Shown here piece after piece: positions 3,418 through 61,690 of a stretch of 64,000 nt of DNA. Both the position numbers and the translations under genes were made by a program. Numbering within the stretch: position 1 is the first letter of the stretch; each line of letters begins with the position of its first letter. This DNA comes from Bacillus sp. Y1 (GTDB lineage: Bacteria > Bacillota > Bacilli > Bacillales > Cytobacillaceae), in NCBI RefSeq assembly GCF_003586445.1, contig NZ_CP030028.1:4858501-4922500 (forward strand). The letters are read 5' to 3'. The notes beneath the pieces are model-generated. The model was not told where the DNA came from. It saw only the letters and a list, made by a program, of their open reading frames with translations, and did not search any database.

Positions 3418-3615
3418 TTATGACCTTATTGGAGAGGTAGCACCTTGTTATCATGTCATAACCTCGTTTTTATGACGTGTGCAGCCTGATTTTATATCTG
3501 TCTAAGGTCATAATATGAACTTTATGACGCATGGGCAATGGGATTTTTCTGTTACAGGTTATAAAGCTAATCTTATGACACTATTAAGTGTTTTTCCTTC
3601 TTACTCATGTCATAA
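3418..3615. repeat. Phased GTCATAA/TTATGAC palindrome array, copy 1
   Basis: This fills most of the gap 3307-3705. TTATGAC occurs at 3418, 3470, 3522 and 3573; its complement GTCATAA at 3455, 3507, 3609, with a GTTATAA variant at 3558. Each full unit is a 22-nt palindrome (7-bp arms, 8-nt variable centre), repeating every 51-52 nt with unrelated 29-30 nt between units. The same architecture recurs at 26327-26472. No ORF is supported here. Confidence 0.85.
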
Positions 3616-3661
3616 CTCTCTATTTGGTTTTTTTATAAGTGGCTTTTGTTAATTTCCCCTA

Positions 3662-3692
3662 CAAAAAAACACCCGCCAAAACCTGGCAGGTG
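3662..3692 (-). terminator. Intrinsic terminator after speB
   Basis: Stem CACCTGCC/GGCGGGTG with one mismatch, followed on the minus strand by seven T. It lies 14 nt beyond the speB stop. Confidence 0.85.
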
Positions 3693-3705
3693 CACGATTC
3701 CATCC

Positions 3706-4578
3706 TTATTTCACCCATCCAAGAATCATTTCGCGGATGAGTTTGCTTGCTGTGTTTGCTGTTTGTTCTGAGTGGTCGTAAATTGGGGCTACTTCTACTA
3801 AGTCTGCTCCCACTACATTAACTTCCGAGCGTGCAATTTCGTGAATGGAAGCTAGTAGCTCTTTAGAAGTGATTCCACCTGCATCAACTGTACCTGTTCC
3901 TGGTGCATGCGCAGGGTCAAGAACATCGATATCAATTGTTACATACACAGGACGTCCTGCTAATGTTGGCAATACTTTTTTCAAAGGCTCAAGCACTTCG
4001 AACGGAGAAATATGCATACCAACTTCCTTCGCCCATTGGAACTCTTCCTTCATGCCGCTTCGGATACCAAATGAATACACATTTTGTGGCCCGATTAAAT
4101 CTGCCACCTTACGAATCGGTGTAGAGTGAGATAATGGCTCTCCCTCATAGTTCTCACGAAGATCTGTGTGTGCATCCATATGTATGATGGCTAAATCCGG
4201 ATACTTTTTTACCATTGCTTTAAAAACTGGCCAAGAAACTAAATGCTCTCCACCCATGCCAAGCGGGAATTTTCCAGCATCAAGAACCTTGTCCACGAAC
4301 TCTTCGATCATATCTAAACTGCGTTGTGGATTTCCGAACGGAAGTGGAATATCACCCGCATCATAGTATTTCACATCTTCTAGCTCACGGTCTAAGTACA
4401 AGCTGTATTCTTCTAATCCAATGGACACTTCACGAATACGCGCTGGACCAAAACGAGATCCTGGTCGGTAACTTACTGTCCAGTCCATAGGCATTCCGTA
4501 CAATACCGCTTTACTTTCCTCAAAGCTTGGATGGCTTTTAATAAACACCTTACCTGAGTATGCTTCATCAAAACGCAT
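3706..4578 (-). CDS. speB: Agmatinase (agmatine ureohydrolase)
   Basis: Hydrolyses agmatine to putrescine and urea, the step between arginine decarboxylation and spermidine synthesis. Seen: ureohydrolase metal-binding motifs GGEH (109-112), DAHTD (135-139) and TIDIDVLDP (214-222), which coordinate the binuclear manganese centre. Length of 290 aa matches B. subtilis SpeB. The ATG follows AAAGGAGG. It lies downstream of speE in the same direction, with an intervening terminator and a structured hairpin element (4603-4675) ending just before its ribosome-binding site. Confidence 0.96.
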   Translation of the reverse strand: MRFDEAYSGKVFIKSHPSFEESKAVLYGMPMDWTVSYRPGSRFGPARIREVSIGLEEYSLYLDRELEDVKYYDAGDIPLPFGNPQRSLDMIEEFVDKVLDAGKFPLGMGGEHLVSWPVFKAMVKKYPDLAIIHMDAHTDLRENYEGEPLSHSTPIRKVADLIGPQNVYSFGIRSGMKEEFQWAKEVGMHISPFEVLEPLKKVLPTLAGRPVYVTIDIDVLDPAHAPGTGTVDAGGITSKELLASIHEIARSEVNVVGADLVEVAPIYDHSEQTANTASKLIREMILGWVK

Positions 4579-4602
4579 TTTGTTTCCTCCTTTAAATTAA
4601 GA

Positions 4603-4675
4603 GGGGGTCAGTTTCATATCCGCCAGCTGGTGTTACTACGTAACAAAGGCTTCCTTCAGGCGGAAACTGCCCCCC
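4603..4675 (-). other. Branched inverted repeat in the speB leader
   Basis: The outer arms pair as GGGGG/CCCCC, CAGTTT/AAACTG and CCGCC/GGCGG, with a one-base and a four- to five-base bulge. They enclose two small hairpins, AAGG-AAG-CCTT and TGTTAC-TAC-GTAACA, so the transcript could form a multi-branched fold. It starts after the speE terminator and ends about 12 nt before the speB ribosome-binding site. I cannot match it to a known riboswitch class. Confidence 0.6.
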
Positions 4676-4695
4676 ACAATCTAATTCTTCCACAG

Positions 4696-4723
4696 TAAAA
4701 AACGGGAGAGAAAATCCCCCCGT
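4696..4723 (-). terminator. Intrinsic terminator after speE
   Basis: Stem ACGGG/CCCGT with additional inner pairs, followed by a T run on the minus strand. It begins 8 nt past the speE stop. Confidence 0.75.
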
Positions 4724-4730
4724 CTTATAT

Positions 4731-5561
4731 TTAGCCTTCGATTAAATCTTTAACAAACTTCGGTAGCACAAATGCTGCATTGTGAAGTTCTTTTGTGTAA
4801 TACTTAGTATCAATATCATGGAAGCGCTCTTCAGCTACTTCAAGTGGATCATGCTTCTTTGATCCTAAAGTGAATGCCCACATTCCGCTTGGGTATGTTG
4901 GGATGTTTGCGATGTAAAGGCGAGTGATCGGGAAGATTTCCTTTACGTCTTTTTGTACAGAACGGATTAAGTCCGCTTTGAACCAAGGGTTATCTGATTG
5001 TGCAACGAAGATTCCGTCTTCTTTTAACGCCTTAGAAATCCCTGCATAGAATCCTTTTGTAAATAGGTTTACTGCTGGACCAACTGGCTCAGTTGAGTCT
5101 ACCATGATCACATCGTATACGTTTTCTGCTGTAGCGATGTGCATAAAACCATCATCCACTTTTACTTCTACACGTGGATCGTCTAGCTGTCCTGCGATCT
5201 CTGGAAGGTACTTTTTAGAGTACTCAATTACTTTTCCGTCGATTTCAACAAGAGTTGCTTTTTTCACGCTTGGGTGCTTAAGCACTTCGCGAATAACTCC
5301 TCCGTCTCCACCACCAACAACCAGTACATTTTCCGGATTTGGGTGAGTGAATAATGGAATATGAGCAACCATTTCGTGGTATACGAACTCATCTTTAATT
5401 GATGTCATTACCATGTCATCTAAAAGAAGCATATTGCCCCATTCTTCTGTTTCTACCATATCTAATTTTTGAAAGTCTGTTTGCTCCGTATGTAATGTGC
5501 GCTTTACCTTCATTGTGATGCCAAAATTCTCAGTTTGCTTTTCCGTAAACCAAAGTCCCAT
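4731..5561 (-). CDS. speE: Spermidine synthase (polyamine aminopropyltransferase)
   Basis: Transfers an aminopropyl group from decarboxylated S-adenosylmethionine to putrescine, giving spermidine. Seen: Rossmann-type methyltransferase fold with the nucleotide-binding loop GGGDGG (83-88), acidic residue in LVEIDGK, and the VDSTEPVGP active-site stretch (about 154-162). Length of 276 aa equals the Bacillus enzyme. The ATG follows AAGGAAGG. Together with speB it forms the final part of the arginine-agmatine-putrescine-spermidine route. Confidence 0.97.
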
Positions 5562-5797
5562 TTACGCCATCCTTCCTTATTTAAAAAATATCTATCGGTT
5601 TCAATACTCATTTTCCTGTATTGTTATTCTTCCCCAAAAAAACTCAAACATGAGAAAAAGTATAGATGAATCTAGCAAAATTGCAAGAAAAAAATTCTTT
5701 TTTTAATAGATAGGTGTTTAAAACAGCCTCTTTCTTTTCATACTAGTAAGAAAGATGGGAAAACAGGAAAAATCTATCTGAAGGTGAGGTGTCATCC

Positions 5798-7870
5798 TTG
5801 GAGGTTATTACGGATCAGCGGTTTAGAAGAACGATGAAATACATACGTGCCTTACTCATTCTTGGATCTATCGGTCTTGGTTTACTTGTTTTATTAGTGA
5901 CCGGTGTTCTTATATACGCCAAGGTGCAGGGCCCTCCTCCCCTCGCCGTGCCTCAATCGTCTCTATATTACTCGGATGATGGGCAGGTAATCGGCGAAAG
6001 CAATAATGGTGAAAAGAGATACTGGGTAGGAATCGATGAAATTTCCCCCCATTTAATTGAAGCAACCGTAGCGATTGAGGATCGATCCTTTTATAAGCAT
6101 AACGGATTTGATTTTAAACGAATTGCTGGTGCTGCTCTTGCTGACCTCAAGGCAATGGCGAAAGTTCAAGGAGCAAGTACGATTAGTCAACAGTATGCAC
6201 GAAATTTATTTCTCGAGCATGAAAAAACGTGGAAGCGTAAGCTACTAGAAGCACTTTACACGATTCGAATCGAAATGAATTATACGAAAAACGAGATCCT
6301 CGAAGGTTACTTAAATACCATCTATTATGGAAAAGGAGCTTACGGCATTCAAGCAGCCAGTCAGTATTATTTAGGAAAAAATGCTGCTGACTTGACTCTA
6401 GCTGAGGCCTCTATGCTAGCTGGGATTCCAAAAGGTCCAAGCATCTACTCTCCTCTTATTTCGGAGGAAAATGCAAAGGACCGTCAAAAAATCATTTTGG
6501 ATTCTATGGTGAAAAGTAAATACATTACCGAAGCTGATGCGAATACGGCTATTGATGAGACGCTATCATTTGTTGGAGAGCATTCCCATTCCGTGACACA
6601 AATTGCTCCGTATTTTCAAGATGCCGTTAAGCAAGCATTAAAAAATGACTTAGGTTTGGATGACCGAACGATTGAGCTTGGTGGACTACGTGTGTACACA
6701 ACACTTGATACCGAGCAGCAGGAGTTAGCAGAGAAAAATGTTTCCACTCATATGGCAAAGGATTCTGAATTGCAGGTAGCACTCGTGTCAATGAATCCGA
6801 AAAACGGGTATGTAAAGGCGATGGTAGGCGGAAGAGATTATGTGGAAAGTCCGTTCAACCGTGCCGTTCAAGCTGTTCGTCAACCGGGTTCTACCATCAA
6901 GCCGCTTCTCTACTATGCGGCGATTTCACAAGGATTTACGCCCGCATCATTAGTGAGAAGTGAAATGACAACCTTCCGTTTTGACGATAACCGAGCGGAG
7001 TATACACCGCATAATTTTAATAATAAGTACGCGGGAAAAGAAATCACAATGGCACAAGCACTCGCCCTTTCCGATAATGTGTATGCGGTTAAAACACATT
7101 TATTTTTAGGAGAAGACACACTCGTAAAAACAGCCAAGCAATTTGGAATTACGACTCCTATGGAAAACGTACCATCCTTAGCACTTGGGACAAGTGGGGT
7201 AAAGGTTATTGATATGGCAAATGCCTATAGTCTGTTTGCAAACGGTGGAAAAAAAGTGAAGCCGGTTCTTATTAAGAGAGTGGAAGACCATCGTGGGGAA
7301 GTCATTTACGAGTATGAAAAGGAAAACGAGCGTGTTCTAAAAGCTGACGCAGCGTTCGTTATGACCCATATGATGACAGGGATGTTTGATAAAAAGCTAG
7401 ATGGATATTCCAATGTGACCGGCAGCTCAATGATCAATGATATGACCCGAATTTATGCTGGGAAGTCTGGCTCCACTGATTCCGATAGCTGGATGGTCGG
7501 TTTTTCTCCTCAGCTAGTTACGGCCGTATGGACAGGTTACGACCAAGGAAATCCGATTGAAATCGTTGCCGAGAAATCGTACGCGAAAAACATTTGGGTC
7601 AACTATATGGAGGACGCACTAGCTGATGAGCCGATTAAAAACTTCAAAGCCCCTAAAGGAACAGTTGGAGTATATATCGACCCTGAAAGCGGCCTTTTAG
7701 CAACCGATGACTGCCCTGTCAAACGACTCACTTATTTTATCGCAGGAACCGAACCAACCAAGCACTGCATCGATCATCTAGAACATGATGCCGAAAAGCC
7801 AACCGAAAAGAAAAAAGAAGAAAAGAAAGAGAAAAAGACATGGTATAAGAGAATTTTTGATTGGAGCTAA
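5798..7870 (+). CDS. pbpG: Class A penicillin-binding protein (PBP 2d-like)
   Basis: Bifunctional peptidoglycan synthase anchored by one N-terminal membrane helix (about residues 18-43). Seen: GT51 glycosyltransferase motifs EDRSFY (94-99) and GASTISQQ; transpeptidase motifs STIK (365-368), SDN (425-427) and KSG (about 556-558, KSG in place of KTG); a lysine/glutamate-rich tail. The TTG at 5798 is preferred: AAGGTGAGG lies eight bases upstream, whereas the GTG at 5789 overlaps it. The position before ywhD-ywhC-ywhB matches B. subtilis pbpG, a sporulation PBP. 691 aa or so is normal. Confidence 0.93.
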   Translation: MEVITDQRFRRTMKYIRALLILGSIGLGLLVLLVTGVLIYAKVQGPPPLAVPQSSLYYSDDGQVIGESNNGEKRYWVGIDEISPHLIEATVAIEDRSFYKHNGFDFKRIAGAALADLKAMAKVQGASTISQQYARNLFLEHEKTWKRKLLEALYTIRIEMNYTKNEILEGYLNTIYYGKGAYGIQAASQYYLGKNAADLTLAEASMLAGIPKGPSIYSPLISEENAKDRQKIILDSMVKSKYITEADANTAIDETLSFVGEHSHSVTQIAPYFQDAVKQALKNDLGLDDRTIELGGLRVYTTLDTEQQELAEKNVSTHMAKDSELQVALVSMNPKNGYVKAMVGGRDYVESPFNRAVQAVRQPGSTIKPLLYYAAISQGFTPASLVRSEMTTFRFDDNRAEYTPHNFNNKYAGKEITMAQALALSDNVYAVKTHLFLGEDTLVKTAKQFGITTPMENVPSLALGTSGVKVIDMANAYSLFANGGKKVKPVLIKRVEDHRGEVIYEYEKENERVLKADAAFVMTHMMTGMFDKKLDGYSNVTGSSMINDMTRIYAGKSGSTDSDSWMVGFSPQLVTAVWTGYDQGNPIEIVAEKSYAKNIWVNYMEDALADEPIKNFKAPKGTVGVYIDPESGLLATDDCPVKRLTYFIAGTEPTKHCIDHLEHDAEKPTEKKKEEKKEKKTWYKRIFDWS

Positions 7871-7899
7871 CAGGTTTTTACCTGAGTTGGCTCCTTTTT
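7863..7899 (+). terminator. Intrinsic terminator of pbpG
   Basis: Hairpin with arms GGAGC-TAAC-AGGT and ACCT-GTT-GGCTCC and then TTTTTA. The left arm includes the pbpG stop codon. Confidence 0.85.
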
Positions 7900-7966
7900 A
7901 TTTGAAATTGCGGTTTTTCGAGGCCTCTGAGAGGAAAATGGGGATACCTAGTGAATTTTCTTCGGG

Positions 7967-8220
7967 ATATTTGCGATTTAACAGATTTATTTGCGATCTT
8001 CAGATTTTATTTGCGATTTCAAAAATTTATTTGCGATTCTCAGATTTTATTTGCGATTTCAAAAATTTATTTGCGATTCCCAGATTTTATTTGCGATTCC
8101 TGAAACTTATTTGCGATCATCAAAATTTATTTGCGATTCCTGAAACTTATTTGCGATCATCAAAATTTATTTGCGATTTGCCCAAGTTATTTGCGGTTCA
8201 CAATACTTACTTGCTTTTAC
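7967..8220. repeat. 20-nt phased TTATTTGCGAT repeat array, copy 1
   Basis: About 13 units start every 20 nt from 7967 (7967, 7987, 8007 ... 8187, 8207). Each unit is an 11-nt core TTATTTGCGAT plus a 9-nt segment. The 9-nt segments recur in pairs (CTCAGATT/TTCAAAAAT types, then CCTGAAAC/ATCAAAAT types), giving 40-nt higher-order duplications. The two last cores are degenerate (GCGGT, TTACTTGC). The array fills the gap between convergent pbpG and ywhD. The same core at the same period occurs at 20233-20390. Confidence 0.92.
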
Positions 8221-8255
8221 AGGCCATCGCCAAAACCCATCACTATTCAAATATA

Positions 8256-8293
8256 CGAAAAAGCCCCGAGTCACATGTACTCGGGGCTTTTTC
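8256..8293. terminator. Bidirectional terminator between pbpG and ywhD
   Basis: AAAAAGCCCCGAGT and ACTCGGGGCTTTTT form a perfect stem around a 7-nt loop, with T runs on both strands. It ends ywhD on the minus strand and blocks read-through of the repeat array from the plus side. Confidence 0.9.
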
Positions 8294-8402
8294 TGTCCTA
8301 GTGCTATAGCGTGTTATCGCTGTTTAAAGTTTACTTTTTTTAACGGAAAACGGCAAGTATTTCCTTACAATTTGTTTAAAAAACCTTTTTGGAATAATTT
8401 TC

Positions 8403-8912
8403 TTATCCCTGAAGATCCGACTTCAATCTCTCTTCTGATCTTTCCCACATACCCGCGTCATGGTTTTTCAAAAACTCAGCTAGAATTCCTTTTGAACGAC
8501 TATCCATATGATCGACGATGATATGACGTTTAATCGACTTATCCATGCGATTCACATGCTCTGGTAGTGACTTATAGCCACGACGAATTTCACGGTCCAC
8601 AGTCATTTCACAAGCGGTCACTCCCGCATAATACGGTCCTTCCTGCTTTCGATCAATCGTGACCCAAACCAGCCAATACGGCTTGGCGTTTGGAACTTCT
8701 TCCTTTGTTTTTAAAAACTTAATTCCTTTTTCCACAACACTTCTTGCGTGCATGGCACCAACATCAATGACTGCTTCCCCTGCTTCCACATCAATAATAA
8801 CGGGAGATACATTATCTAGGGTAAGAGCTCCTACACCAAATCCTCCATGCCCCTCGGTTGGATCACTTTTAATTATATTAAAACCAATACTTTTCTTCTT
8901 TTTTTCTTCCAT
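8403..8912 (-). CDS. ywhD: YwhD family protein
   Basis: Conserved Bacillaceae protein of unknown function, 169 aa, no signal peptide or membrane helix. Seen: lysine-rich start, a glycine-rich GHGGFGVGAL stretch near residue 22 and a long conserved core (PYWLVWVTIDR, GPYYAGVTACEM). ATG follows GGAGGCG. It lies downstream of the membrane protease gene ywhC (15-nt gap) on the same strand, the same order as in B. subtilis. Confidence 0.88.
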   Translation of the reverse strand: MEEKKKKSIGFNIIKSDPTEGHGGFGVGALTLDNVSPVIIDVEAGEAVIDVGAMHARSVVEKGIKFLKTKEEVPNAKPYWLVWVTIDRKQEGPYYAGVTACEMTVDREIRRGYKSLPEHVNRMDKSIKRHIIVDHMDSRSKGILAEFLKNHDAGMWERSEERLKSDLQG

Positions 8913-8927
8913 AAAAATGAACGCCTC

Positions 8928-9596: not shown

Positions 9597-9738
9597 GACA
9601 ACTCCTTTTCGAAGACTCTATTTAGCCAAATTATACATGAAATATAGGATAAATGGAAAAATGAGTATTCCTTTCTCCCGTTTGGAACATTATGATTATG
9701 TATGAAGAACTTACATATCTCTCAAGGAGGCAATCATC

Positions 9739-9924
9739 ATGCCATACGTAACCGTAAAAATGCTAGAAGGCCGTACAGACGACCAAAAGAAAGCTCTTGT
9801 GGAAAAAGTAACTGCTGCTGTTGTGGAAACAACTGGAGCACCTGCTGAGAAAGTCGTTGTATTCATAGATGAAATGACGAAAAATAATTATGGGATTGCT
9901 GGGAAAAGGCTGTCTGACGAATAA
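9739..9924 (+). CDS. ywhB: 4-oxalocrotonate tautomerase family protein
   Basis: Keto-enol tautomerase of the 4-OT superfamily, 61 aa. Seen: Pro immediately after the initiator Met (Pro1 general base), then PYVTVKMLEGR and the conserved Arg residues, with the typical beta-alpha-beta pattern. B. subtilis YwhB tautomerises phenylpyruvate-like substrates in vitro; the physiological substrate is unclear. ATG follows AAGGAGG. It is a single gene with a large inverted repeat just after it. Confidence 0.93.
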   Translation: MPYVTVKMLEGRTDDQKKALVEKVTAAVVETTGAPAEKVVVFIDEMTKNNYGIAGKRLSDE

Positions 9925-20232: not shown

Positions 20233-20390
20233 TTATTTGCGATTTTCAAGATTTATTTGCGATCCTGGAATTTTATTTGCGATTCTCAGATTTTATTTGC
20301 GATCTTGAAAACTTATTTGCGATTCTCAGATTTTATTTGCGATCCTGAAAATTTATTTGCGATTCTCCCAAAATACTTGCGTTTCCCCAC
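20233..20390. repeat. 20-nt phased TTATTTGCGAT repeat array, copy 2
   Basis: Seven cores start at 20233, 20253, 20273, 20293, 20313, 20333 and 20353, with a degenerate eighth (ATACTTGCG) at 20373. Period 20 nt exactly. Intervening 9-mers include TCTCAGATT twice, also found in the array at 7967-8220. It ends 7 nt before the moeB stop. The remainder of the gap 19967-20396 contains only the terminator. Confidence 0.92.
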
Positions 20391-20396: not shown

Positions 20397-21416
20397 CTAC
20401 CCCAACAATCTCTGATAAATCGAACGCGCCTGACTCATATCCTTTGTTCCATGAACCAGTCCTCGTCCATCTTTAAAAATAACGACACGTTGCTCGTCCA
20501 TTTCAACTGAAAGCAAATACGGATTTGCCTTCACCACGTAACCCAACTTAACTAGTCGACTCGCTAAATCTCCTAAATTTAGCTCACTTTGTCGTGGTGG
20601 CCGGATTTGCACCGTATCACGACCACAGAGTACCGTTGAGCGCGAAAGATTTTCCTTGTCCAAATACGGATACTCCCGAAGATCTCCACATGACAAGCAG
20701 CCTGGGTCCTTTGCTTTACCCATTTTCATGCTCGTGTATTGATTTCGCCATAAATCAAAGCTCGCAAACGAATCACGAACCGCCTCCCAATCCTCTACAA
20801 GAATCTTCAGTACCTCTGCTGACTGATGAGCAATAACCATCTGCACAGCCGGTCCGATAATTCCTCCTGTATCACAGGTCATTCCTTGAATAGGGATTCT
20901 TTTCAGCAAACAATTTAAGCAAGGAGTTTTGCCTGGAATAATCGTAAAGCTCATGCCGAAGCTCCCTACACAAGCGCCATAGATCCAAGGGATTTTGTAC
21001 TTTTGCGATATATCGTTAATGGCCATTCGAGTTTCAAAATTATCAGTCGCATCCAAAATCAAGTCCACATCCACGACAAGGTCCTCGAGCATGTCAGGCG
21101 ATGCATCTCCAACAACCGGCACAATCTCAACATCGCTGTTAATGGCCCGCAATCTCTTTTCAGCTGCAATCGCCTTCGGAAGCTTTTCTCGAACATCTTC
21201 TTCCGTATACAGCTGCTGTCTTTGAAGATTGCTCGCTTCTACATAATCTCTATCCACAATCGTTAGCTTCCCAACACCCGCGCGCGTAAGCACCTCTCCA
21301 TTTCCCGATCCAAGTGCACCGGCGCCAATCATCAACACATGTTTAGAGCCTAGCTTGTCCTGTCCATTTTTTCCAATCGGTGAAAAAAGAATTTGCCTCG
21401 AATACCGATCATCCAT
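20397..21416 (-). CDS. moeB: MoeB/ThiF-family adenylyltransferase
   Basis: E1-like enzyme that adenylates the C-terminus of the sulfur carrier MoaD in molybdopterin synthesis (ThiF does the same for ThiS). Seen: nucleotide-binding GAGALGSGNGEVL near residue 31, VDRDYVEASNLQRQ, and zinc cysteine pairs CLNC and CLSC. At 339 aa it has a C-terminal extension (about 245-339) beyond the core. Neighbouring moaD, moaE and mobA support MoeB. ATG after AGGAGG. Confidence 0.9.
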   Translation of the reverse strand: MDDRYSRQILFSPIGKNGQDKLGSKHVLMIGAGALGSGNGEVLTRAGVGKLTIVDRDYVEASNLQRQQLYTEEDVREKLPKAIAAEKRLRAINSDVEIVPVVGDASPDMLEDLVVDVDLILDATDNFETRMAINDISQKYKIPWIYGACVGSFGMSFTIIPGKTPCLNCLLKRIPIQGMTCDTGGIIGPAVQMVIAHQSAEVLKILVEDWEAVRDSFASFDLWRNQYTSMKMGKAKDPGCLSCGDLREYPYLDKENLSRSTVLCGRDTVQIRPPRQSELNLGDLASRLVKLGYVVKANPYLLSVEMDEQRVVIFKDGRGLVHGTKDMSQARSIYQRLLG

Positions 21417-25557: not shown

Positions 25558-26214
25558 TTATTTAAACCCATTTTCCTCTAGAAATTGAGCGGTAAGAGAA
25601 GAACTCTTTTGAATGGTTTGAGTGGCTTGTTTGGATAAAAAGTGTGAAATGTACTTGCTAATCATATCGCACTCAATATTCACAATGTCTCCAGCCCCTT
25701 TTCGCCCGATAATCGTTTCCGATAACGTGTGCGGGATCAGCGAAAGAAGGAAACTCGTCTCTGACACACCAAAAACCGTTAAACTTGTTCCATCTACTGT
25801 GACGGACCCTTTTTCGATAATGTAGTGTAAGAGGTCGCTTGGTGCTTCTATCTCGTAGTACACGGCATTGGCAACCTCTCTTTTTTCTTTAATTACCCCG
25901 AGGCCATCCACATGTCCCGACACAAAATGACCACCAAATCGTCCGCCAGCTGCCATCGCCCTTTCCAGGTTGACACGGGACCCTGGTTCCACATCTCGTA
26001 AGCTTGTTGCTTTAATCGTCTCTGGCATTACATCTACTGTGAATGCGTTAGACGTGAAAGAAGTGACCGTTAAACAAACTCCATTCACTGCGATACTGTC
26101 GCCGAGCTTTACATCCGTGAGAATATGATTGGCTTCAATCGTTAACACCGAAGATTGCCCTGTATTCTTTGTATTGGTTATAAGTCCAATTTCCTCAATA
26201 ATCCCCGTAAACAT
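25558..26214 (-). CDS. ribE: Riboflavin synthase alpha subunit
   Basis: Dismutates two lumazine molecules to riboflavin. Seen: the family start [10 protein letters not shown] and two lumazine-binding repeats (about 1-97 and 98-195), each with a GxSxxVNG/DGTSLTV loop. 218 aa. First structural gene after the FMN riboswitch. ribD, which begins this operon in B. subtilis, is absent; the leader from the riboswitch terminator to ribE is 257 nt long and holds a repeat array. Confidence 0.97.
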
Positions 26215-26311: not shown

Positions 26312-26472
26312 GACCGTATCAAATGCTTATGACTCAAAGAGACGATATTTTCATCAATACTGGTCATAAACCAGAGTTTATGACCTTTAAATCTGAATTT
26401 TCATATAGCAACAAGTCATAACCACTCTTTTATGACCTGTAGCCTCAATATTCCTTCGAAATGGAGTCATAA
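26312..26472. repeat. Phased GTCATAA/TTATGAC palindrome array, copy 2
   Basis: TTATGAC at 26327, 26378 and 26430; GTCATAA at 26363, 26415 and 26466. Two complete 22-nt palindromes (7-bp arms, 8-nt variable centre) plus half-sites at both ends; spacings are 51, 52, 52 and 51 nt with unrelated 29-30-nt intervals. It lies in the rib operon leader between the riboswitch terminator and ribE, where ribD would stand. Confidence 0.85.
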
Positions 26473-26510: not shown

Positions 26511-26582
26511 GAAAAATGGCAATATCAAATAAAGGTCTAAAAATGGGTACACTTCACCCATACACATAAACCAGAATTTTTT

Positions 26583-26728
26583 TTCCTTCTCCCATCCAGA
26601 CTTTTACTGTCGGCTCTGGAGTTTCACCAGATCCACCGTTTGAATGAACACTCAAACGGGTCACGGACTAAGAAGCTCTTGCTTCATCACCGCCGGTTGG
26701 GAATTGCACCCGACCCCGAAGGAATACT
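26583..26728 (-). promoter_or_regulatory. FMN riboswitch (RFN element)
   Basis: Minus-strand sequence shows the conserved RFN blocks in order: CTTCGGGGTCGGGTG, AATTCCC, ACCGGCGGTGAT, AGTCCGTGACCC, a variable hairpin (CCGTTTGAGTG...CATTCAAACGG), GGATCTGGTGAAACTCC, GCCGACAGT and AGTCTGGATGGGAGAAGG. It senses FMN and stops transcription of ribE-ribBA-ribH. Confidence 0.97.
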
Positions 26729-32677: not shown

Positions 32678-32862
32678 TAAGCGGAGATTTTCCGGTTAGA
32701 TGCAGAATGGAGCTCATTTCGGGGTAAATAAGAGGAGGATTTCCGCTTATGCAAAGCAAAACCTCCCCTTTTCGAGTTTTTTGAGCCAATAGGCGGAATC
32801 TCTCCGTCTAATTAAAGCTTTTTTAATAGCAATTACAAATTAAGCGGAATTTCTCCGCCTAT
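32678..32862. repeat. Phased TAAGCGGA/TCCGCTTA palindromes
   Basis: Four units begin at 32678, 32729, 32790 and 32841 (spacing 51, 61, 51 nt). Each is a 21-22-nt imperfect palindrome, for example TAAGCGGA-ATTTC-TCCGCCTA. The intervening 29-39 nt are unrelated. This occupies the gap 32536-32961 along with the terminator at 32917; nothing else is seen there. Confidence 0.82.
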
Positions 32863-32961: not shown

Positions 32962-33522
32962 CTATCTTCCACCGCATTGGAAGCTGCTGATTCTTCTTAA
33001 ATCAGTACCATAATAAACCCAACGTCTATTTCTCCAACGGTAACCCGCAATAGAATCTCTTCCAACAAACGTTGGATAGAACCAGAAGCTGTTTCCATTA
33101 ATTAACCAAATATACGTGAAGCGGAATCGGCATCTTCTAATGGCACCAGGGTCAACCGCAAAAGGGGAAATACCTTGTTGCGGTACGTATGAAGGTGGTG
33201 GGCCTGATGGTGGACCATATTGGTCACCTCCACCGCCTCCTCCTGGGAATCCGCCACCCGGAAAGTCGTCACCCCCTCCTGGAAAGCCTCCTCCTGGAAA
33301 ACCGCCGCCCGGGAAGCCTCCTCCTGGAAAACCGCCGCCTGGGAAGCCCCCTCCTGGAAAACCGCCGCCTGGGAAACCTCCTCCTGGAAAGCCACCACCC
33401 GGGAAGCCTCCTCCTGGGAATCCGCCGCCTGGAAAACCTCCTCCTGGAAAGCCTCCCGGGAAGCCTCCAATTGTTGGCTGCTGTCGATCATCTAAAAAAT
33501 AATTTGGATGATAATAGTTCAC
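32962..33522 (-). CDS. Glycine-rich FPGGG-repeat protein
   Basis: About 186 aa. Seen: a short N-terminus rich in Tyr/His/Asn, then about fourteen FPGGG pentapeptides (roughly residues 20-95), a Gly/Pro/Gln linker, and a conserved-looking C-terminal segment (about 130-186) rich in Trp, Tyr, Phe and Arg (RFRFTYIWLINGNSFWFYP, YRWRNRRWVYYG) ending in FQCGGR. No signal peptide. I infer a spore-coat or surface protein; not proven. Start uncertain: GTG at 33522 has AGAGAGGGG at good spacing, ATGs at 33528 and 33546 do not. Confidence 0.82.
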   Translation of the reverse strand: MNYYHPNYFLDDRQQPTIGGFPGGFPGGGFPGGGFPGGGFPGGGFPGGGFPGGGFPGGGFPGGGFPGGGFPGGGFPGGGFPGGGDDFPGGGFPGGGGGGDQYGPPSGPPPSYVPQQGISPFAVDPGAIRRCRFRFTYIWLINGNSFWFYPTFVGRDSIAGYRWRNRRWVYYGTDLRRISSFQCGGR

Positions 33523-55763: not shown

Positions 55764-56877
55764 CCACCTTCACCACACCATCTTTACCTGTTTCTTTTTG
55801 CATAATTGCTAGTAAAAACTGGACATATTTCTCGGCCACCCGATGAATATGAAAGTTCTCAAGAGTGTGCAAAATCGCCGCCTCGGACATCTCTTTCTGT
55901 ACCTCAGGCTGATCGATAATGAAATATAGCTTCTTGATTGCCTCATCTATATTCATTCCGTGAAATAGTTTCCCTGTTTCCCCATCTTTCACAATCTCTG
56001 TGACGGGCATCATTCGAGAGGCAACTACTGGAACTCCACAAAGCATAGATTCCACAAATGTGTTCCCAAATGACTCCGTCTTTGTAGTCGCGATGGTACA
56101 GCCACCAGATTGACGAATCTTTGCATACACATGTGGCATTTGCTGGTAAGGAATCACCGGAAACCACTTGATGATGTCAGTTAATCCTTCTTCTTCCCAC
56201 TTTGCAGCAAACTCTTCTCTCTGCACACTTTGTGCTCCACCTGTGACCCAAAATTCCATATCATTTCGATCCTGTTTAACTCTTTTAGCGATTTCCATAA
56301 GCATTGGCCAGTTCTTCCTTTTATCTAATCGTCCAATCCAACCGATAACCTTTTTATTCTTTGGAAGGATGGGCTCCAAATCATAATCGATTTCTTCTTC
56401 ATTAAGTGCATAATAATAAGCTGGGTCGATTCCGTTATAAATCACCTCGATTGGAATTCCTTCAATAAGGATGGATACAAGCCTTTTTTGATAATGGGAG
56501 GGAACAATGATGGCTACCGGTTGAATACCCTGAAAGTTCTGGAGATGAGGAGTGATTTTTATAAGTTCTGGAGTACGTGCTTCGACTATTACAGGTCCGT
56601 TGTAATTGGCCATTTGCAGCCACTTAAAGGCATCCTTTGTATCAACAACAATTATTGCGTCATATTGATTATCTTGTATGATTTTCACTATTTCGTTTTT
56701 GTCCTTCGTCAAGTAAACGGGAGCGATATCTTCCATAATATGCATACCACCGTGATCTGTCTTATACAGAAACTCTGTTTTTATGCCATATTTTTTAAAA
56801 TATATCGCCCGATTACGCCACCCAGCATTCACCCCTCCAACCGTGAGTAGACGCCAGATTACTAGTATTTTCATCAT
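55756..56877 (-). CDS. GT4-family glycosyltransferase
   Basis: 373 aa retaining glycosyltransferase. Seen: GT-B fold, IGWIGRLDKRKNWPML in the nucleotide-sugar domain, and the E-x7-E motif ESFGNTFVE near residue 276-284. No signal peptide. First gene of the operon; its donor could be UDP-glucose or UDP-glucuronate from the downstream enzymes (inference). Similar sets (ytcABC, cotSA) in B. subtilis belong to the spore coat. ATG after AGGAG. Confidence 0.9.
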   Translation of the reverse strand: MMKILVIWRLLTVGGVNAGWRNRAIYFKKYGIKTEFLYKTDHGGMHIMEDIAPVYLTKDKNEIVKIIQDNQYDAIIVVDTKDAFKWLQMANYNGPVIVEARTPELIKITPHLQNFQGIQPVAIIVPSHYQKRLVSILIEGIPIEVIYNGIDPAYYYALNEEEIDYDLEPILPKNKKVIGWIGRLDKRKNWPMLMEIAKRVKQDRNDMEFWVTGGAQSVQREEFAAKWEEEGLTDIIKWFPVIPYQQMPHVYAKIRQSGGCTIATTKTESFGNTFVESMLCGVPVVASRMMPVTEIVKDGETGKLFHGMNIDEAIKKLYFIIDQPEVQKEMSEAAILHTLENFHIHRVAEKYVQFLLAIMQKETGKDGVVKVDD

Positions 56878-57027
56878 GACTCTCCTTACTTTTCACCTTT
56901 CTACCATACTATTCACGGTCTACAAACTAGTGTTTTATTTACATTCTCTTTACATTAGATTCATAAAATTAAAAAGTGTACAGGCTATTAACTAGGGAAA
57001 AAGCGGAATTTTGCTTATCGGAAAATA

Positions 57028-57062
57028 AAAGAGGGAATGACCCAAGTCATTCCCTCTTTCTT
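57028..57062. terminator. Terminator after the YiaA/B gene
   Basis: AAAGAGGGAATGA/TCATTCCCTCTTT stem, A/T-rich on both sides. A lone AAGCGGAATTTTGCTTATCGG (56999-57021) just before it resembles one unit of the repeats at 32678. Confidence 0.88.
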
Positions 57063-57321
57063 ACTCAATACTATTCGAATGTGAACGCTGACGCTCTTGT
57101 TCAGCGAGAATTTCGTTATCCTCTGCATTGTCTCTTGTTACTTTTTGCGTCAGGATCGCCCCTACAGCAACTAAGATCATGACAGCGATATAATACCCTT
57201 TTTCATTTAGTTCAAGACTATCAGCGTTATAAAGACCGATACTAAAAAGGAATACCCCTGCAAAGAAAGTAAAATAAGCTAGTACGGTGAAGGCCGTGGT
57301 ATTTCTACGTCTGTACTTCAT
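57061..57321 (-). CDS. YiaA/YiaB-family inner membrane protein
   Basis: 86 aa with two membrane helices (about 8-28 and 40-60) and a charged C-terminal tail (TRDNAEDNEILAEQERQR). Seen: NTTAFTVLAYFTFFAGVFLF then GYYIAVMILVAVGAI, as in the YiaAB domain. Function unknown. The ATG at 57321 has AGGGGG six bases upstream; upstream in-frame starts lack a site. Confidence 0.85.
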   Translation of the reverse strand: MKYRRRNTTAFTVLAYFTFFAGVFLFSIGLYNADSLELNEKGYYIAVMILVAVGAILTQKVTRDNAEDNEILAEQERQRSHSNSIE

Positions 57322-57405
57322 ATTCATCCCCCTAAAACCAACTATAAGTTCCATTTCAGGTATATTATACCAAGTAGACATGGTGTAAATCTACACTTTT
57401 TTTCA

Positions 57406-57435
57406 TAAAAAAAGGCTGACTTTTAATCGTCAGCT
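57406..57435 (-). terminator. Terminator after opuAC
   Basis: GCTGAC/GTCAGC stem followed by CTTTTTTT on the minus strand. Confidence 0.85.
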
Positions 57436-57448
57436 CTTCTTCCTGTTA

Positions 57449-58327
57449 TTACTCACCCTTAATCGCTTTTACTTCATCAGGATGATTATCAATCCATTCC
57501 TGTGCCACTTCTTCCGCATCGCGATTATTATCTTCAATTTCAACAATCATCTTTTCAATATCTGATACATCCATGCTCCAGTTGCTTAATAATTCATATG
57601 CTTCTGGTGCTTTATCTTTTAACTCATTGTTTGTAATAACATGAACTTCTGATGTGTCAAAGTATCCTTCTGGACTTGGAAGTACCTTTAAATCATAGTT
57701 AGCAAACATTGGATGTGGTCTCCAGCCAAGGAAAAGCACGGGCTCTTCTTTCGCCATTAGACGCTGCGCTTGTGCAAGCATACCACCTTCACTGGAAGCT
57801 ACATATTCAAGATCCAACCCAAGCTCTTCAATCATTTTATGAGAAGTAACCGTCATCCCTGCTCCTTCTTCAATTCCATAAACCTTGCCCCCAAATAAAT
57901 CTTCTTTGCCCTTTATATCTTCAACCGACTCAATTCCTTCTACATACGTTGGAATGACCCATCCAAGCTCACCATCTGCATAACTTACCGCTGTATCATC
58001 AAGACTATCTACATATTTCTCCATATAATTGGCGTGCATATCTGGTAGCCATGCATCCATAAATATATCAAGATCTCCTTTTGAAAGGCCCGTGTACACT
58101 CCACCAGCATCAGCACTTGTTTCTTTTACTGTATAACCCATGTCTTCAAGAAGAAGCTTGGCAACCTTTGTAGGTGGGATTGTACTCGTCCACGGTGTTA
58201 CTCCAAAGTTAATGGTGACATTTTTGCTGTCTTCTCCAGTTTCCCCAGAAGTACTTGCTCCACTGCTACAACCTACAAGTAAAATGAAGGTTAGTAGTAA
58301 TAATAAGCTTACCTTTAGTTTTTTCAA
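57449..58327 (-). CDS. opuAC: Glycine betaine-binding lipoprotein
   Basis: 292 aa. Seen: signal peptide with lipobox LLVGCSS (Cys20), and ligand-cage Trp residues in TPWTS, DAWLPDMH and LGWRPHPMF, as in OpuAC/ProX proteins that hold the trimethylammonium head group. TTG start after AAGGAG. Third gene of the opuAA-AB-AC operon. Confidence 0.94.
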   Translation of the reverse strand: MKKLKVSLLLLLTFILLVGCSSGASTSGETGEDSKNVTINFGVTPWTSTIPPTKVAKLLLEDMGYTVKETSADAGGVYTGLSKGDLDIFMDAWLPDMHANYMEKYVDSLDDTAVSYADGELGWVIPTYVEGIESVEDIKGKEDLFGGKVYGIEEGAGMTVTSHKMIEELGLDLEYVASSEGGMLAQAQRLMAKEEPVLFLGWRPHPMFANYDLKVLPSPEGYFDTSEVHVITNNELKDKAPEAYELLSNWSMDVSDIEKMIVEIEDNNRDAEEVAQEWIDNHPDEVKAIKGE

Positions 58328-58344
58328 TCTTCCCCACTCCTTGA

Positions 58345-59181
58345 CTATTTTTTATTTTTATTACCTAAACCTTGAGTAATACGGTCTAGGATAATAGCTA
58401 ACACAACAATTCCTAATCCACCAACCAAACCTAATCCAACGTTAACGCTAGATATTCCAGCTAATACGGTTGAACCAAGTCCTGGTGCGCCGATCATAGA
58501 TGCAATAACTGCCATTGATAGGGCCAACATAATTGTTTGATTTACCCCTGCCATAATCGTTGGGATCGCAACGGGTAATTGTACTTTCACAAGCATTTGC
58601 CATGAAGTGGATCCGAAAGCCCTTGCTGCTTCGACCATATCTTCAGGCACTTGTTTAATGGCCAGGGTTGTCATTCGCACCGCTGGCGGAGTTGCAAACA
58701 CAAAAGTTGATATAACAGCTGGAACTTCACCTAATCCAAATAACAGAATAGCCGGTATCAAATACACAAAGCTCGGTAAAGTTTGCATAAAGTCCAATAT
58801 TGGACGAACAATTTTATCTAAAACTGCATATTTTGCAGTTAAAATCCCTAATGGAAGTCCTATGATGATTGAAAAGACGGTTGCTACCACAACAACGGCT
58901 AATGTTAGCATCGCATCTTCCCAAAGATTAACGGAACCAAGATATAAAGTACCGATTAATGTAAAAATAGCAATTCCTTTTCCAGCAAGTTTCCACGCTA
59001 ATAAAATGAATAGTAAAGCAATAATTTCAGCTGGAATCATGAGAAATAAATCAGCTACGCCATTGATGAAAAAAGAGATAATGGAGCTGACGGAGTCAAA
59101 AAAGCCACCCATGACCGGGATTAACCAGTCGTAAACAAAGTCATTTGTCCAATCCTCTAACGGTAATGTAAAATAGTTCAT
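58345..59181 (-). CDS. opuAB: Glycine betaine/proline betaine ABC permease
   Basis: 278 aa membrane subunit. Seen: about seven helices, with the EAA loop VPEDMVEAARAFGSTSWQMLVKVQLP near residue 180 (in part) that contacts the ATPase. Overlaps opuAA by 4 nt. Length and layout match B. subtilis OpuAB. Confidence 0.94.
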   Translation of the reverse strand: MNYFTLPLEDWTNDFVYDWLIPVMGGFFDSVSSIISFFINGVADLFLMIPAEIIALLFILLAWKLAGKGIAIFTLIGTLYLGSVNLWEDAMLTLAVVVVATVFSIIIGLPLGILTAKYAVLDKIVRPILDFMQTLPSFVYLIPAILLFGLGEVPAVISTFVFATPPAVRMTTLAIKQVPEDMVEAARAFGSTSWQMLVKVQLPVAIPTIMAGVNQTIMLALSMAVIASMIGAPGLGSTVLAGISSVNVGLGLVGGLGIVVLAIILDRITQGLGNKNKK

Positions 59182-60377
59182 TCTTTCATCCCCTCGCTTT
59201 GCTCTTTCCCTAACACGAGTCCCGAAAGAATCGAAACTCTTACGATAATTCCTACTAGCTTGTTTTCCTCAACAACAGCGATAGGATATTTTGATTCTGC
59301 TGCTAAACCAATTAGCTCACTTAACGGAGTAGTAGGTGCAGTCGTATGAAAATCTGACTCTAGCACATCCTCAACCCATTTATTTTCCTTATAGGCTTTG
59401 ATGGCAGCATCGATCGTTAAAATTCCTTTTAAGTTTTTATCCTTATCTACGACGAAAATACTTGAGAGGCCTGCATCCTCCATCTTCTTCATTGCTACTC
59501 TTGGGCCATCCTTCCAAGTTGTGATTACGTCAGGCTTTTTCATAATATTAGAAGCCATGAGTACCTTCGAGCGATCCACGTCCTCAACAAAGTTGTACAC
59601 ATATTCATTGGCTGGATTCTCAAGAATTTCTTCAGCGGTTCCAATTTGAACGATTTCTCCATTTTTCATAATCGCAATTCTGTCGCCAAGTTTCAGCGCT
59701 TCATCAAGATCATGTGTGATAAAGAGAATGGTTTTTCCAAGCTTGCTCTGAAGCTGAAGAAGCTCATCCTGCATCTCTTTACGAATAATTGGATCTAATG
59801 CACTGAACGCTTCGTCCATGAGAAGGATATCGGAATCATTCGCAAGAGCTCTCGCAAGCCCCACTCTTTGCTGCATTCCACCACTCAGTTGATCCGGATA
59901 GCTATTCTCGTACCCTTTTAACCCAACATCTTCAATTGCCTTTAGTGCCTTTTCCTCTCTAACGCCTTTCTCGACTCCTTGTACTTCCAGTCCGTAAGCG
60001 ACATTTTCAAGTACATTGCGATGTGGAAACAAAGCAAACTTTTGAAACACCATTGATAGTTTTTTTCTCCTTGTTTGCATCAAGTCGTTTTTATTCATTT
60101 TTGTAATGTCTTGACCATCAATGAGAACTTCACCATCGGTCGGTTCAATCAAACGATTGATTAAGCGAATCAATGTCGACTTCCCACTCCCTGAAAGTCC
60201 CATAAGAACGAAGAATTCCCCTGGCTTCACTTCAAAGGAAGCATTGTTGACACCTACGGTCATGCCTGTTTCTCTTAATATTTGTTCCTTGGTCTGCCCT
60301 TGTTGTAAGCGCTTAACTCCTTCTTTTGGATTTGAGCCAAACACCTTTGTGAGATATTTCACATGAATTTTATTCAT
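59178..60377 (-). CDS. opuAA: Glycine betaine ABC transporter ATPase with CBS domains
   Basis: 399 aa. Seen: Walker A GLSGSGKST near residue 60, signature LSGGMQQR near 164, Walker B ILLMDEAFSALD, and a C-terminal CBS pair (about 275-390), which in OpuA senses ionic strength or c-di-AMP. ATG after AAGGGG. First gene of the operon; an ATCTAT...ATAGAT palindrome stands just upstream. Confidence 0.95.
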   Translation of the reverse strand: MNKIHVKYLTKVFGSNPKEGVKRLQQGQTKEQILRETGMTVGVNNASFEVKPGEFFVLMGLSGSGKSTLIRLINRLIEPTDGEVLIDGQDITKMNKNDLMQTRRKKLSMVFQKFALFPHRNVLENVAYGLEVQGVEKGVREEKALKAIEDVGLKGYENSYPDQLSGGMQQRVGLARALANDSDILLMDEAFSALDPIIRKEMQDELLQLQSKLGKTILFITHDLDEALKLGDRIAIMKNGEIVQIGTAEEILENPANEYVYNFVEDVDRSKVLMASNIMKKPDVITTWKDGPRVAMKKMEDAGLSSIFVVDKDKNLKGILTIDAAIKAYKENKWVEDVLESDFHTTAPTTPLSELIGLAAESKYPIAVVEENKLVGIIVRVSILSGLVLGKEQSEGMKE

Positions 60378-60397
60378 TTTATAACCCCTTTTTGTAT

Positions 60398-60416
60398 ATC
60401 TATTTATTTGATAGAT
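60398..60416. promoter_or_regulatory. Inverted repeat ATCTAT-N7-ATAGAT upstream of opuAA
   Basis: Six-base arms 7 nt apart, 20 nt before the opuAA start, with two more GATAGATTG-type half sites next to it. The regulator gene has the same half-site motif at 60668-60677. Likely operator of the GbsR-type regulator. The gap 60378-60703 shows no other clear element. Confidence 0.55.
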
Positions 60417-60660
60417 TGATAGATTGGTAAGATGTGTATTGTATATAAGAGGAAAAACGAAGAGAGTGAGTAGTTTAAAGTTTTCCTGCCCTTTTATTGT
60501 AGCTTGATTGTCATGTGTTTAACAAAGCCGAAATTTCTGTATATTCCGTAGATATTGTTCGTAAAGTTTTAACTGTACAAATTAGACGATAGAATGGTTA
60601 AAATTCCTCCCGAATGCTCCATAATCCTCCAAAATAATAGGTTTCTACTTTTAAATTCAA

Positions 60661-60677
60661 TATGATAATCTATAGAT
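60661..60677 (+). promoter_or_regulatory. Regulator promoter with palindrome ATCTATAGAT
   Basis: TATGAT (-10-like, 60661-60666) immediately followed by the perfect palindrome ATCTATAGAT (60668-60677), about 27 nt before the regulator's TTG start. Shares half-sites with the opuAA upstream repeat. Confidence 0.55.
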
Positions 60678-60703
60678 AGAAAGCTCAGGGAAGTGAAAAT
60701 ATC

Positions 60704-61237
60704 TTGAATGAACAAGACAAACTATTGAAGGCAAGAGATCGTTTTATTGATTCAATGGCTAAAAATATGAGTCTATATGGAATTACCCATTCGGTAGGAA
60801 GACTATATGGATTATTATATTTTAGTGAAAAGCCAATGACTCTTGATGAAATGAAAGACGAGCTTGGAATGAGCAAAACGAGTATGAGCACAGCTGTCAG
60901 ACAGCTTCAAGAACTAAATATGGTAGAAAAAGTGTGGAAGAAAGGTGAAAGAAAAGATTTATACCAAGCCGCAGACGACTGGTACGAATCCTTCTCTGCC
61001 TTGTTTACCACAAGCTGGCGAACAGGCATCTCCCTTAACATCTCTACTATTAATAAATCACTGAAAGAGCTCCGTTCTCTTCTTGAAAATCCAGAAACAA
61101 GTGACGAAGTAAAGGCTTCTGCAGCGTTAGATATTGAAAAATATCAATATGCACTAGATTACTATGACTGGCTTAACCGTTTTGTTGACAGCCTCGAATC
61201 AAAGGAAATATTTAATCATATTCCAAAAAAGGAGTAG
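60704..61237 (+). CDS. GbsR/MarR-type regulator of the opuA operon
   Basis: 177 aa. Seen: winged helix (about 25-90; MTLDEMKDELGMSKTSMSTAVRQLQEL) and a helical C-terminus, as in GbsR/OpcR/OpuAR proteins that respond to choline or glycine betaine. Divergent from opuAA. TTG start after GGGAAGTG. Confidence 0.92.
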   Translation: MNEQDKLLKARDRFIDSMAKNMSLYGITHSVGRLYGLLYFSEKPMTLDEMKDELGMSKTSMSTAVRQLQELNMVEKVWKKGERKDLYQAADDWYESFSALFTTSWRTGISLNISTINKSLKELRSLLENPETSDEVKASAALDIEKYQYALDYYDWLNRFVDSLESKEIFNHIPKKE

Positions 61238-61269
61238 TGGATGTCTAACCATCCGCTGCTTCTTTTTTG
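61231..61269 (+). terminator. Terminator after the GbsR-type gene
   Basis: AGTAGTGGATG/CATCCGCTGCT stem (two G-U pairs in RNA) followed by TCTTTTTTG; it includes the stop codon. Confidence 0.85.
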
Positions 61270-61284
61270 TTTTAATGAAATACC

Positions 61285-61317
61285 CAGGTTGGGGAAAGCC
61301 CAAACCTGATTTTTTTA
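61285..61317 (+). terminator. Second hairpin with T tract
   Basis: CAGGTT-GGG/CCC-AACCTG stem followed by ATTTTTTT, 16 nt after the first terminator; a back-up terminator ahead of the repeat array. Confidence 0.7.
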
Positions 61318-61331
61318 TTTTTTGGGCTAGT

Positions 61332-61690
61332 CTATTTGACCGGTCGGTGACTTTTTGGGTAGATGCAGGCAATTAGAGATGTGCTATTTGACCGGTTGAT
61401 GACCTTTTAGGTTGCAATGGGCAATTTGAGCCGCACTATTTGACCGGTTGATGACTTTTTGGATCGCTCCGGGCAATTTGAGATGCGCTATTTGACCGGT
61501 TGATGACTTTTTGGATCGCTCCGGGCAATTTGAGATGCGCTATTTGACCGGTTGATGACCTTTTAGGTTGCAGCGGGCAATTTGAGCCGCACTATTTGAC
61601 CGGTTGATGACTTTTTGGGTTGCTGCGGGCAATTAGAATATCCCTATCTTACCGATTAACAGCTTTTTCTAAACTAACGGGCACTGAAAC
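61332..61690. repeat. 52-nt tandem repeat array (CTATTTGACCGGTT...)
   Basis: Six clear units start at 61332, 61384, 61436, 61488, 61540 and 61592, exactly 52 nt apart, and a decayed seventh at 61644. Core CTATTTGACCGGTTGATGAC plus a GGGCAATT block. Units 3 and 4 are identical; units 2 and 5 form another subtype (GACCTTTTAGGTTGCA), giving a mirror order. Fills the gap between the regulator and lytS; the lytS promoter must lie in 61691-61778 or within the array. Confidence 0.93.

Follow-up and report, generated by a model that had tools for sequence, protein, structure and literature searches.

The window analysed here, a 64-kb stretch of the Bacillus sp. Y1 chromosome (C1:4858501-4922500 of a single-contig genome of 5,028,825 bp), contains six intergenic repeat features: five arrays of short units and one copy of a dispersed element built of four short inverted repeats (dyads). 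All six lie where an earlier reading of the sequence alone (the sequence-only reading) had placed them, and the periods it gave, 20 nt at 7967 and 20233, 51-52 nt at 3418 and 26327, and 52 nt at 61332, were recovered. Gene assignments throughout are crude open reading frame (ORF) calls. The features are as follows.

3418..3615, no strand assigned: TTATGAC/GTCATAA array, four units of about 52 nt with 8 half-sites, step 51-52; dyad p 0.010.
7967..8197, plus strand: 20-nt direct-repeat array with core TTTATTTGCGAT, 12 units, every step 20.
20233..20385, plus strand: 20-nt direct-repeat array with core TTTATTTGCGAT, 7 units (20233-20363) and one decayed unit, every step 20.
26327..26472, no strand assigned: TTATGAC/GTCATAA array, three units with 6 half-sites, step 51-52; dyad p 0.005.
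32678..32861, plus strand: copy of the four-dyad element, dyads at 32678, 32729, 32790 and 32841, steps 51/61/51, half-site TARNCGGA, inner gap 5.
61332..61683, plus strand: 52-nt array with arms CTATTTGACCG and CGGGCAATT, about 6-7 units, period 52.

In the 3418..3615 array the inverted half-sites are separated by 8 and about 30 nt. The 7967..8197 array lies between convergent genes, a PBP1A-type gene ending at 7870 and a minus-strand ORF (8403-8912), and has an ortholog with both flanking genes in a congener (locus L202). The second 20-nt array, 20233..20385, is directly downstream of a minus-strand MoeB/ThiF-family gene (20397-21416). The 26327..26472 array is an exception in kind among the placements described below, as it sits between a flavin mononucleotide (FMN) riboswitch (26580-26727, minus strand) and the riboflavin synthase gene ribE (25558-26214, minus strand), and it is probably part of the ribE mRNA leader. 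In the 61332..61683 array the arms carry conserved mismatches and the consensus dyad is non-significant (p 0.453); variation is 2.5% in the arms against 15.6% elsewhere.

The features were followed in a genome sample of 1.124 Mb (22% of the genome), made up of the window and 53 other stretches of 20 kb each. Six of the 53 stretches were sited on known 20-nt matches, so the 20-nt share of this sample is inflated. Tandem Repeats Finder (TRF) identified 31 non-coding arrays in the sample, of which 18 scored above 150, all with a unit of 20/40 or 52/104 nt; half-sites also recur in relatives. The repeat families had been described as unrelated. Their letters do differ, but most of the 51-52-nt families share one anatomy, a unit of inverted half-sites of 7-10 nt, and in 13 of 20 sample arrays the consensus unit has a dyad at p≤0.05. 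Dyad size differs among 52-nt families of equal step (25 nt with a 27-nt linker, or, for TTATGAC, 22 nt with a 30-nt linker). Exact GTCATAA-N8-TTATGAC dyads number 37 in the genome, with 0 for the reversed control, and TTATGAC, CTATTTGACC and TAAGCGGA sites were found again at other genome places.

The anatomy was resolved further in the ATTCGGAC family, using 80 of at least 118 matched stretches from at least 23 organisms. Along these 80 loci ATTCGGAC alternates with GTCCGAAT. The inner gap, GTCCGAAT-N-ATTCGGAC, is exactly 9 nt in 431 of 433 short gaps and is therefore rigid, while the loop varies from 26 to 28 nt (27 in 394/435). In 86 arrays comprising 723 units, 574 of 637 steps measure 52, 32 measure 51 and 27 measure 53; the chaining permitted steps of 50-54 only, so that 41-43 or 62-63 were impossible by construction. 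Without a step constraint, consecutive ATTCGGAC dyads gave 56 steps at 51 or 53 and four single ones (31, 32, 40 and 48), while 62-63 did not occur. Complete half-units as a rule for array ends were considered and rejected, the tendency being weak: both ends are complete N27 units in 23 arrays and complete dyads in 10, while 31 arrays are mixed and 22 are cut off. Locus L051 (625-1571) carries a higher-order 104-nt array in which ATTCGGAC and ATTTGGAC half-sites alternate, which indicates that a variant half-site was copied together with its partner. In congener G001, a 31-32-nt tandem array (L211:12442-12553) with arms TGGTCCGAAA...GCGGACT has a period near three helical turns, and its CCGAA letters resemble the ATTCGGAC family.

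Variation within the arrays is lowest in the half-sites. In 14 TRF arrays picked by period alone (L051 with its 104-nt unit, two arrays at L059 and three weak window arrays were excluded), half-site mismatch to the array consensus was 65/1608 (4.0%), compared with 414/3384 (12.2%) in the remainder, and was lower in all 14. In the ATTCGGAC set, mismatch was 4.0% and 1.9% in the two arms, 14.5% in the gap and 9.5% in the linker, and identity between arrays was 0.97 for arms, 0.35 for the gap and 0.37 for the linker. Per column, variants shared by several units were five times less frequent in arms (0.040) than in linkers (0.210), whereas those confined to one unit were only 1.5 times less frequent (0.156 versus 0.233). 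The greater scarcity of shared arm variants points to removal after mutation.

The changes that do occur in the arms are not compensated. Among 440 distinct ATTCGGAC dyads there were 16 cases in which both partners of a stem pair differed (15.2 expected), and in 8 of them the result was a Watson-Crick pair. With arrays oriented by the pyrimidine-rich strand, one-sided changes led to G.T 99 times and to A.C 110 times, so that a G.U preference was absent. Bases of the N9 gap paired below expectation at three of four positions. Selection therefore appears to act on duplex half-sites and not on RNA stems, and RNA folding of the ATTCGGAC repeats is not the conserved trait; RNA or hairpin stems in this family were accordingly set aside.

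The 51/61/51 spacing read at 32678 is exact, but the feature is no tandem array. A dispersed element, in which the pattern TARNCGGA-N5-TCCGNYTA is repeated as four 21-nt dyads, has one of its copies here. When up to two mismatches are allowed, the form TARGCGGA-N5-TCCGCYTA matches the genome at 116 places (100 of them listed), against 4 for the reversed control. In all 24 loci examined (19 fetched and 5 already in hand) there are four dyads at steps of 50-52, 59-62 and 50-52, the search being one that looked for such steps; a 25th copy lies at locus L060. With no step constraint, three sets yielded 62 steps from one dyad to the next, every one of them 50-52 or 61-62; 12 of the loci had been selected for a first step of 50-52. 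In 192 half-sites, positions 1, 2, 6 and 8 of TARNCGGA are conserved at 98-100%. Among 81 genomes, a two-dyad core occurs in 22, representing 13 of 57 genera; two of these genomes belong to other families within the order. Copies are carried by R. massiliosenegalensis, Neobacillus cucumis and the metagenome-assembled genome SS36439bin_11 (three dyads). Linker identity, over 39 elements in 15 genomes, is 0.61 inside this genome, 0.52 between genomes and 0.35 after shuffling, and by sequence comparison most four-dyad copies are clearly related by descent. In 27% of between-genome pairs the linkers are no more alike than the shuffled range, and 51/61/51 is kept there too; in this part of the set, therefore, the spacing outlasts the linker sequence.

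The share of paired cells in the element is close to that in shuffles (87.8% in the 24 copies compared with 87.4%), two other measures lean slightly to pairing, as given below, and three dyad pairs are unpaired in 22, 18 and 16 of the 24 copies, that is, they are conserved non-pairs. A long-range model in which dyad 1 pairs with dyad 4, and dyad 2 with dyad 3, scored below shuffles and was rejected. At L176 (Robertmurraya massiliosenegalensis), TCCTGTTA half-sites replace TCCGNYTA in three of the four dyads; several half-sites apparently changed in concert, as though tracking an altered protein.

The 20-nt arrays differ in design. Their paired pattern has 92 matches in the genome and 0 in the reversed control, and the step is 20, not 20.8-21, almost without exception over up to 36 units. 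Hairpins with a constant TTTATTTGCGAT loop and alternating stems were tried for these arrays and rejected (7% versus 5.4% shuffled, sd (standard deviation) 1.2). The pattern is limited to four of the five genomes of the genus among the 81. Array places are common to congeners, both flanks matching at five of eight G002 loci and two of five G003 loci, with differing unit numbers; two G004 loci contained no 20-nt array of three or more units. Judged by their conserved core and strict step, these arrays are probably platforms of a related type, built on direct repeats.

The sequence-only reading had proposed that every period is near a whole number of helical turns. This holds for part of the material: 52 nt is five turns at 10.4, and 51 and 61 nt also fit whole turns, while the strict 20 fits poorly, since sites 20 nt apart turn by roughly 30 degrees per unit and leave one face of the helix. 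The implied pitch also varies by kind (10.0, 10.2-10.3 and 10.4). The predicted genome-wide enrichment at helical multiples was not found in the sample. In 453 regions without an ORF of 600 nt or more (294 kb), repeated 8-mers were scored per lag against shuffles; lag 52 occurred in 27 regions (shuffles 5.8), lag 51 in 19, lag 40 in 15 and lag 20 in 12, and by pair number the dominant lags were 52, 104, 156 and 208, and 20, 40, 60, 80 and 120. Lags near other multiples of 10.4 averaged 6.4 regions, antiphase lags 7.0 and shuffles about 5.2. The repeats thus reflect two fixed unit lengths, with the excess at multiples of 20 and 52 and no general helical enrichment. Fixed unit length alone could also be compatible with a fixed amplification step, the other option offered with the phasing proposal. 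High counts at lags 18 (22 regions versus 6.6 shuffled, from just 34 pairs), 66 and 117 (14 each versus about 5) are unexplained.

Placement relative to genes was compared with array-free gaps of at least 250 nt in the sample, a background from one genome (110 co-directional, 43 divergent and 22 convergent). The 52-nt loci of other genomes lie in 33 co-directional, 4 divergent and 18 convergent gaps (odds ratio 3.4 for convergent and 0.24 for divergent), and the 20-nt arrays in 16, 2 and 10 (odds ratios 3.9 and 0.24); these tests are partly dependent, as some 20-nt arrays are orthologous. The 25 four-dyad copies include 13 in convergent, 12 in co-directional and none in divergent gaps (odds ratio 7.5, p 2e-5), and 11 of the 12 co-directional ones are closer to the preceding stop codon than to the following start. 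All three kinds are thus over-represented between convergent genes and under-represented between divergent ones. Array-bearing gaps within the sample itself (16 co-directional, 2 divergent, 7 convergent) lean in the same direction non-significantly (p 0.06 and 0.07).

For the 20-nt arrays, origin proximity and orientation along the chromosome are no more than a lead. From GC skew in the sample, the replication origin lies near position 0 and the terminus at about 2.75 Mb. The first 13 exact-pattern arrays were all within 1.1 Mb of the origin and aligned with the replichore; for 15 arrays, origin proximity gave a Kolmogorov-Smirnov p of 4.6e-5 and 13 were replichore-aligned (p 0.007). Later finds weaken the trend: a reversed array at 4.60 Mb, one at 884 kb and a degenerate reversed one at 2.11 Mb. 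At least 16 arrays are present in the genome, 13 of 16 replichore-aligned and 15 of 16 within 1.1 Mb of the origin; the relaxed census covers 100 of 212 matches, so this list is incomplete. In G001 the single clear 20-nt array is near the terminus, not the origin. Separately, the pyrimidine-rich strand of the sampled 52-nt arrays tracks the replichore more strongly than background, the plus-strand pyrimidine fraction being below 0.469 in seven of nine left-arm arrays and above 0.525 in 10 of 11 right-arm arrays.

The inner gap is rigid and the linker softer, half-sites are under selection and compensation is lacking, all of which is consistent with dimeric proteins bound to duplex DNA; 52 nt as 5 x 10.4, like 51/61/51 as five, six and five turns of about 10.2, fits contact between dimers on the same face. 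In the interpretation proposed here, to which we give about even credence, both the 52-nt arrays and the four-dyad element consist of clustered duplex-DNA sites near gene ends, read by dedicated sequence-specific dimeric proteins. From the inverted half-sites, their constancy, the uncompensated changes in the ATTCGGAC family, the constant spacing and the placement, we infer a protein as reader, its dimeric state and the role of a platform. Dedicated DNA-binding proteins would bind the inverted half-sites as dimers; dyads five (or five, six and five) turns apart would leave adjacent dimers facing the same way and able to touch or bridge. Clusters that lie past the ends of genes and avoid divergent promoters could then organise DNA or halt RNA polymerase while leaving promoters unblocked. 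A wider version, offered tentatively, is that a Bacillaceae protein family occupies phased platforms of two forms, one an open-ended 52-nt array with more than one half-site dialect, the other a closed module of four dyads spaced by 5, 6 and 5 turns. The module would sit at gene ends, chiefly where genes converge, and serve as a chromosome-organising or polymerase-stopping counterpart of an insulator.

Several observations weigh against site clusters read by dimeric proteins. Arms for the 14-array variation test were partly set by eye beforehand, and the ATTCGGAC mismatch figures stem from loci mostly fetched with an exact-arm pattern. Seven of the 20 sample arrays, including the window array at 61332, have no significant consensus dyad. 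ATTCGGAC dyads outside arrays were absent from the 1.124-Mb sample, unlike ordinary operators. In the four-dyad element, the covariation score (0.081 versus 0.071 shuffled, reached by 17 of 500 shuffles) and the number of double changes (10 versus 6.9, reached by 38 of 500) lean slightly to pairing; of five pairing measures, these two lean weakly to compensation. Position 3 of dyad 3 covaries (pairing 97% versus 84%), which may reflect two subfamilies. The element also folds better than shuffles on both strands (z -3.2 and -3.9), as palindromic DNA of any kind would. Neutral insertion would likewise yield placement near 3' ends. A binding protein was not found, the sole candidate family tested being TIGR01764 (BldC-like proteins), which was rejected because it is present in 76 of 81 genomes irrespective of arrays and shows no co-distribution. 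A shared neighbour gene as the binder was also rejected, the largest protein cluster beside the 80 loci, ABC transporter-like by eye, being found in six of 23 organisms.

The main competing explanation is that the repeats arose as selfish or mutational elements and are tolerated near gene ends: a transposase or slippage copies units and requires intact half-sites, and copies survive where they are harmless, downstream of genes. We consider this rather unlikely. It would account for the local homogenisation of linkers, the variable copy number, the patchy spread (ATTCGGAC in 14 of 81 genomes and the four-dyad core in 22), the dispersed four-dyad copies with related linkers (0.61 inside the genome) and the avoidance of divergent gaps; preferential copying of intact-arm units would, in addition, cause the deficit of shared arm variants. 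It is less readily reconciled with the copying of variant arms, as in the ATTTGGAC units that recur along L051, or with the 20-nt positions common to congeners (both flanks at 5/8 G002 and 2/5 G003 loci). Neither ATTCGGAC arrays nor the four-dyad element had a copy in IMG/VR, and blastn with the 32678 copy found none in the plasmid set.

Dimeric readers of duplex half-sites must also be distinguished from general nucleoid or looping proteins for which the spacing itself is selected, by helical phasing, in every family. The whole-turn fits of 52 (5 x 10.4) and 51/61 (five and six turns of about 10.2-10.3) and the retention of spacing despite diverged linkers agree with this explanation, which we nevertheless judge improbable: helical multiples are not generally enriched, 20 is held strictly, and unconstrained ATTCGGAC steps show none at 62-63 and one each at 31, 32, 40 and 48, against 56 at 51 or 53. 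Transcribed structured RNAs, with the half-sites as stems of small RNAs or mRNA 3' ends, seem more improbable still. The 52-nt repeats of Bacillus coagulans are reported as transcribed, by RNA-seq (PMC8625621), and the four-dyad element has its better-than-shuffled folding and weak covariation lean. Against this stand the 440 ATTCGGAC dyads without compensation or G.U preference, the conserved non-pairs of the four-dyad element (22, 18 and 16 of 24), its long-range model scoring below shuffles and the failure of alternating stems in the 20-nt arrays. Rfam gave no family above cut-off across five sources except the FMN riboswitch, and matches near 32678 lay only far below cut-off.

Repeats of this class are already in print. 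Subirana and Messeguer (2021; PMC8161180) describe, for 176 Bacillus genomes, repeats of constant size (20-21 and 51-53 nt) and variable sequence, termed species specific, in which short conserved signals are often accompanied by their own reverse within one repeat; a small RNA or nucleoid protein is proposed, and the two-turn idea also appears. The repeats studied here resemble those in unit length (52 and 20), non-coding position and the presence of several unlike families in one genome, and five of the six window features belong to that class, while the 32678 element (51/61/51) falls outside its length criterion. The detection rule given there (at least four repeats, 60% of equal length) fits 7967, 20233, 61332 and 3418 (four units); 26327 has three. 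The B. oceanisediminis family 79_52_5 of that report contains TTCGGACTC...CTGTCCGAA, which is the half-site seen here. Unlike the species-specific label, one half-site here is common to at least 23 organisms. The ATTCGGAC pair is found in 14 of the 81 genomes, including this one, and in 10 of 57 genera (reversed control 0 in those 14, with single matches in G036 and G067), so the half-site is not species-specific. The rigid inner gap, half-site selection, uncompensated changes, gene-orientation placement and 51/61/51 element go beyond the available text of that report. The tandem repeats are thus already catalogued, and the dispersed four-dyad version looks new; six 13-nt dyad strings matched no paper in the collection searched, a weak test as such sequences are seldom printed.

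Other systems offer partial parallels. The repetitive extragenic palindromes and bacterial interspersed mosaic elements (REP/BIME) of enterobacteria and pseudomonads are short imperfect palindromes of 20-40 nt, dispersed, extragenic and regularly spaced. The 21-nt dyads of the four-dyad element, at 25 loci all intergenic by ORF calls, are similar in this respect; by contrast, neither a GTAG nor a CGTC tag stands beside the dyads (24-copy consensus, by eye), the layout is fixed and conserved stem pairing is little evidenced. BldC, a MerR-like protein of Streptomyces, is described as binding 9-bp direct repeats, AATTCGGAC, and the optimised repeat includes the half-site ATTCGGAC (PMC5859096). 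The half-sites here are inverted and 17 and 35 nt apart, unlike those direct repeats, and the likeness is probably coincidence. The intergenic TAACTGA direct repeats of Beggiatoaceae, whose role is given as not known (PMC4679880), are likewise short and abundant, with a different sequence. Linkers inside one array resemble each other (9.5% mismatch to consensus), unlike the spacers of clustered regularly interspaced short palindromic repeats (CRISPR).

For the 52- and 20-nt repeats, which had been left between a small RNA and a nucleoid protein, the ATTCGGAC evidence points to duplex-DNA recognition. The four-dyad element, whose spacing is the same in at least 13 genera belonging to three families of the order, offers a compact probe for both the protein and the phasing.

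Two coding repeats were also noted. At 33275-33468 in the window, in-frame 15/30-nt repeats with CCTCCTGGAAAGCCT units lie within an ORF for a proline- and glycine-rich repeat protein, and L057 (13773-15756) is a coding array of about seven copies of a 273-nt unit, with a long ORF for a large repeat protein.

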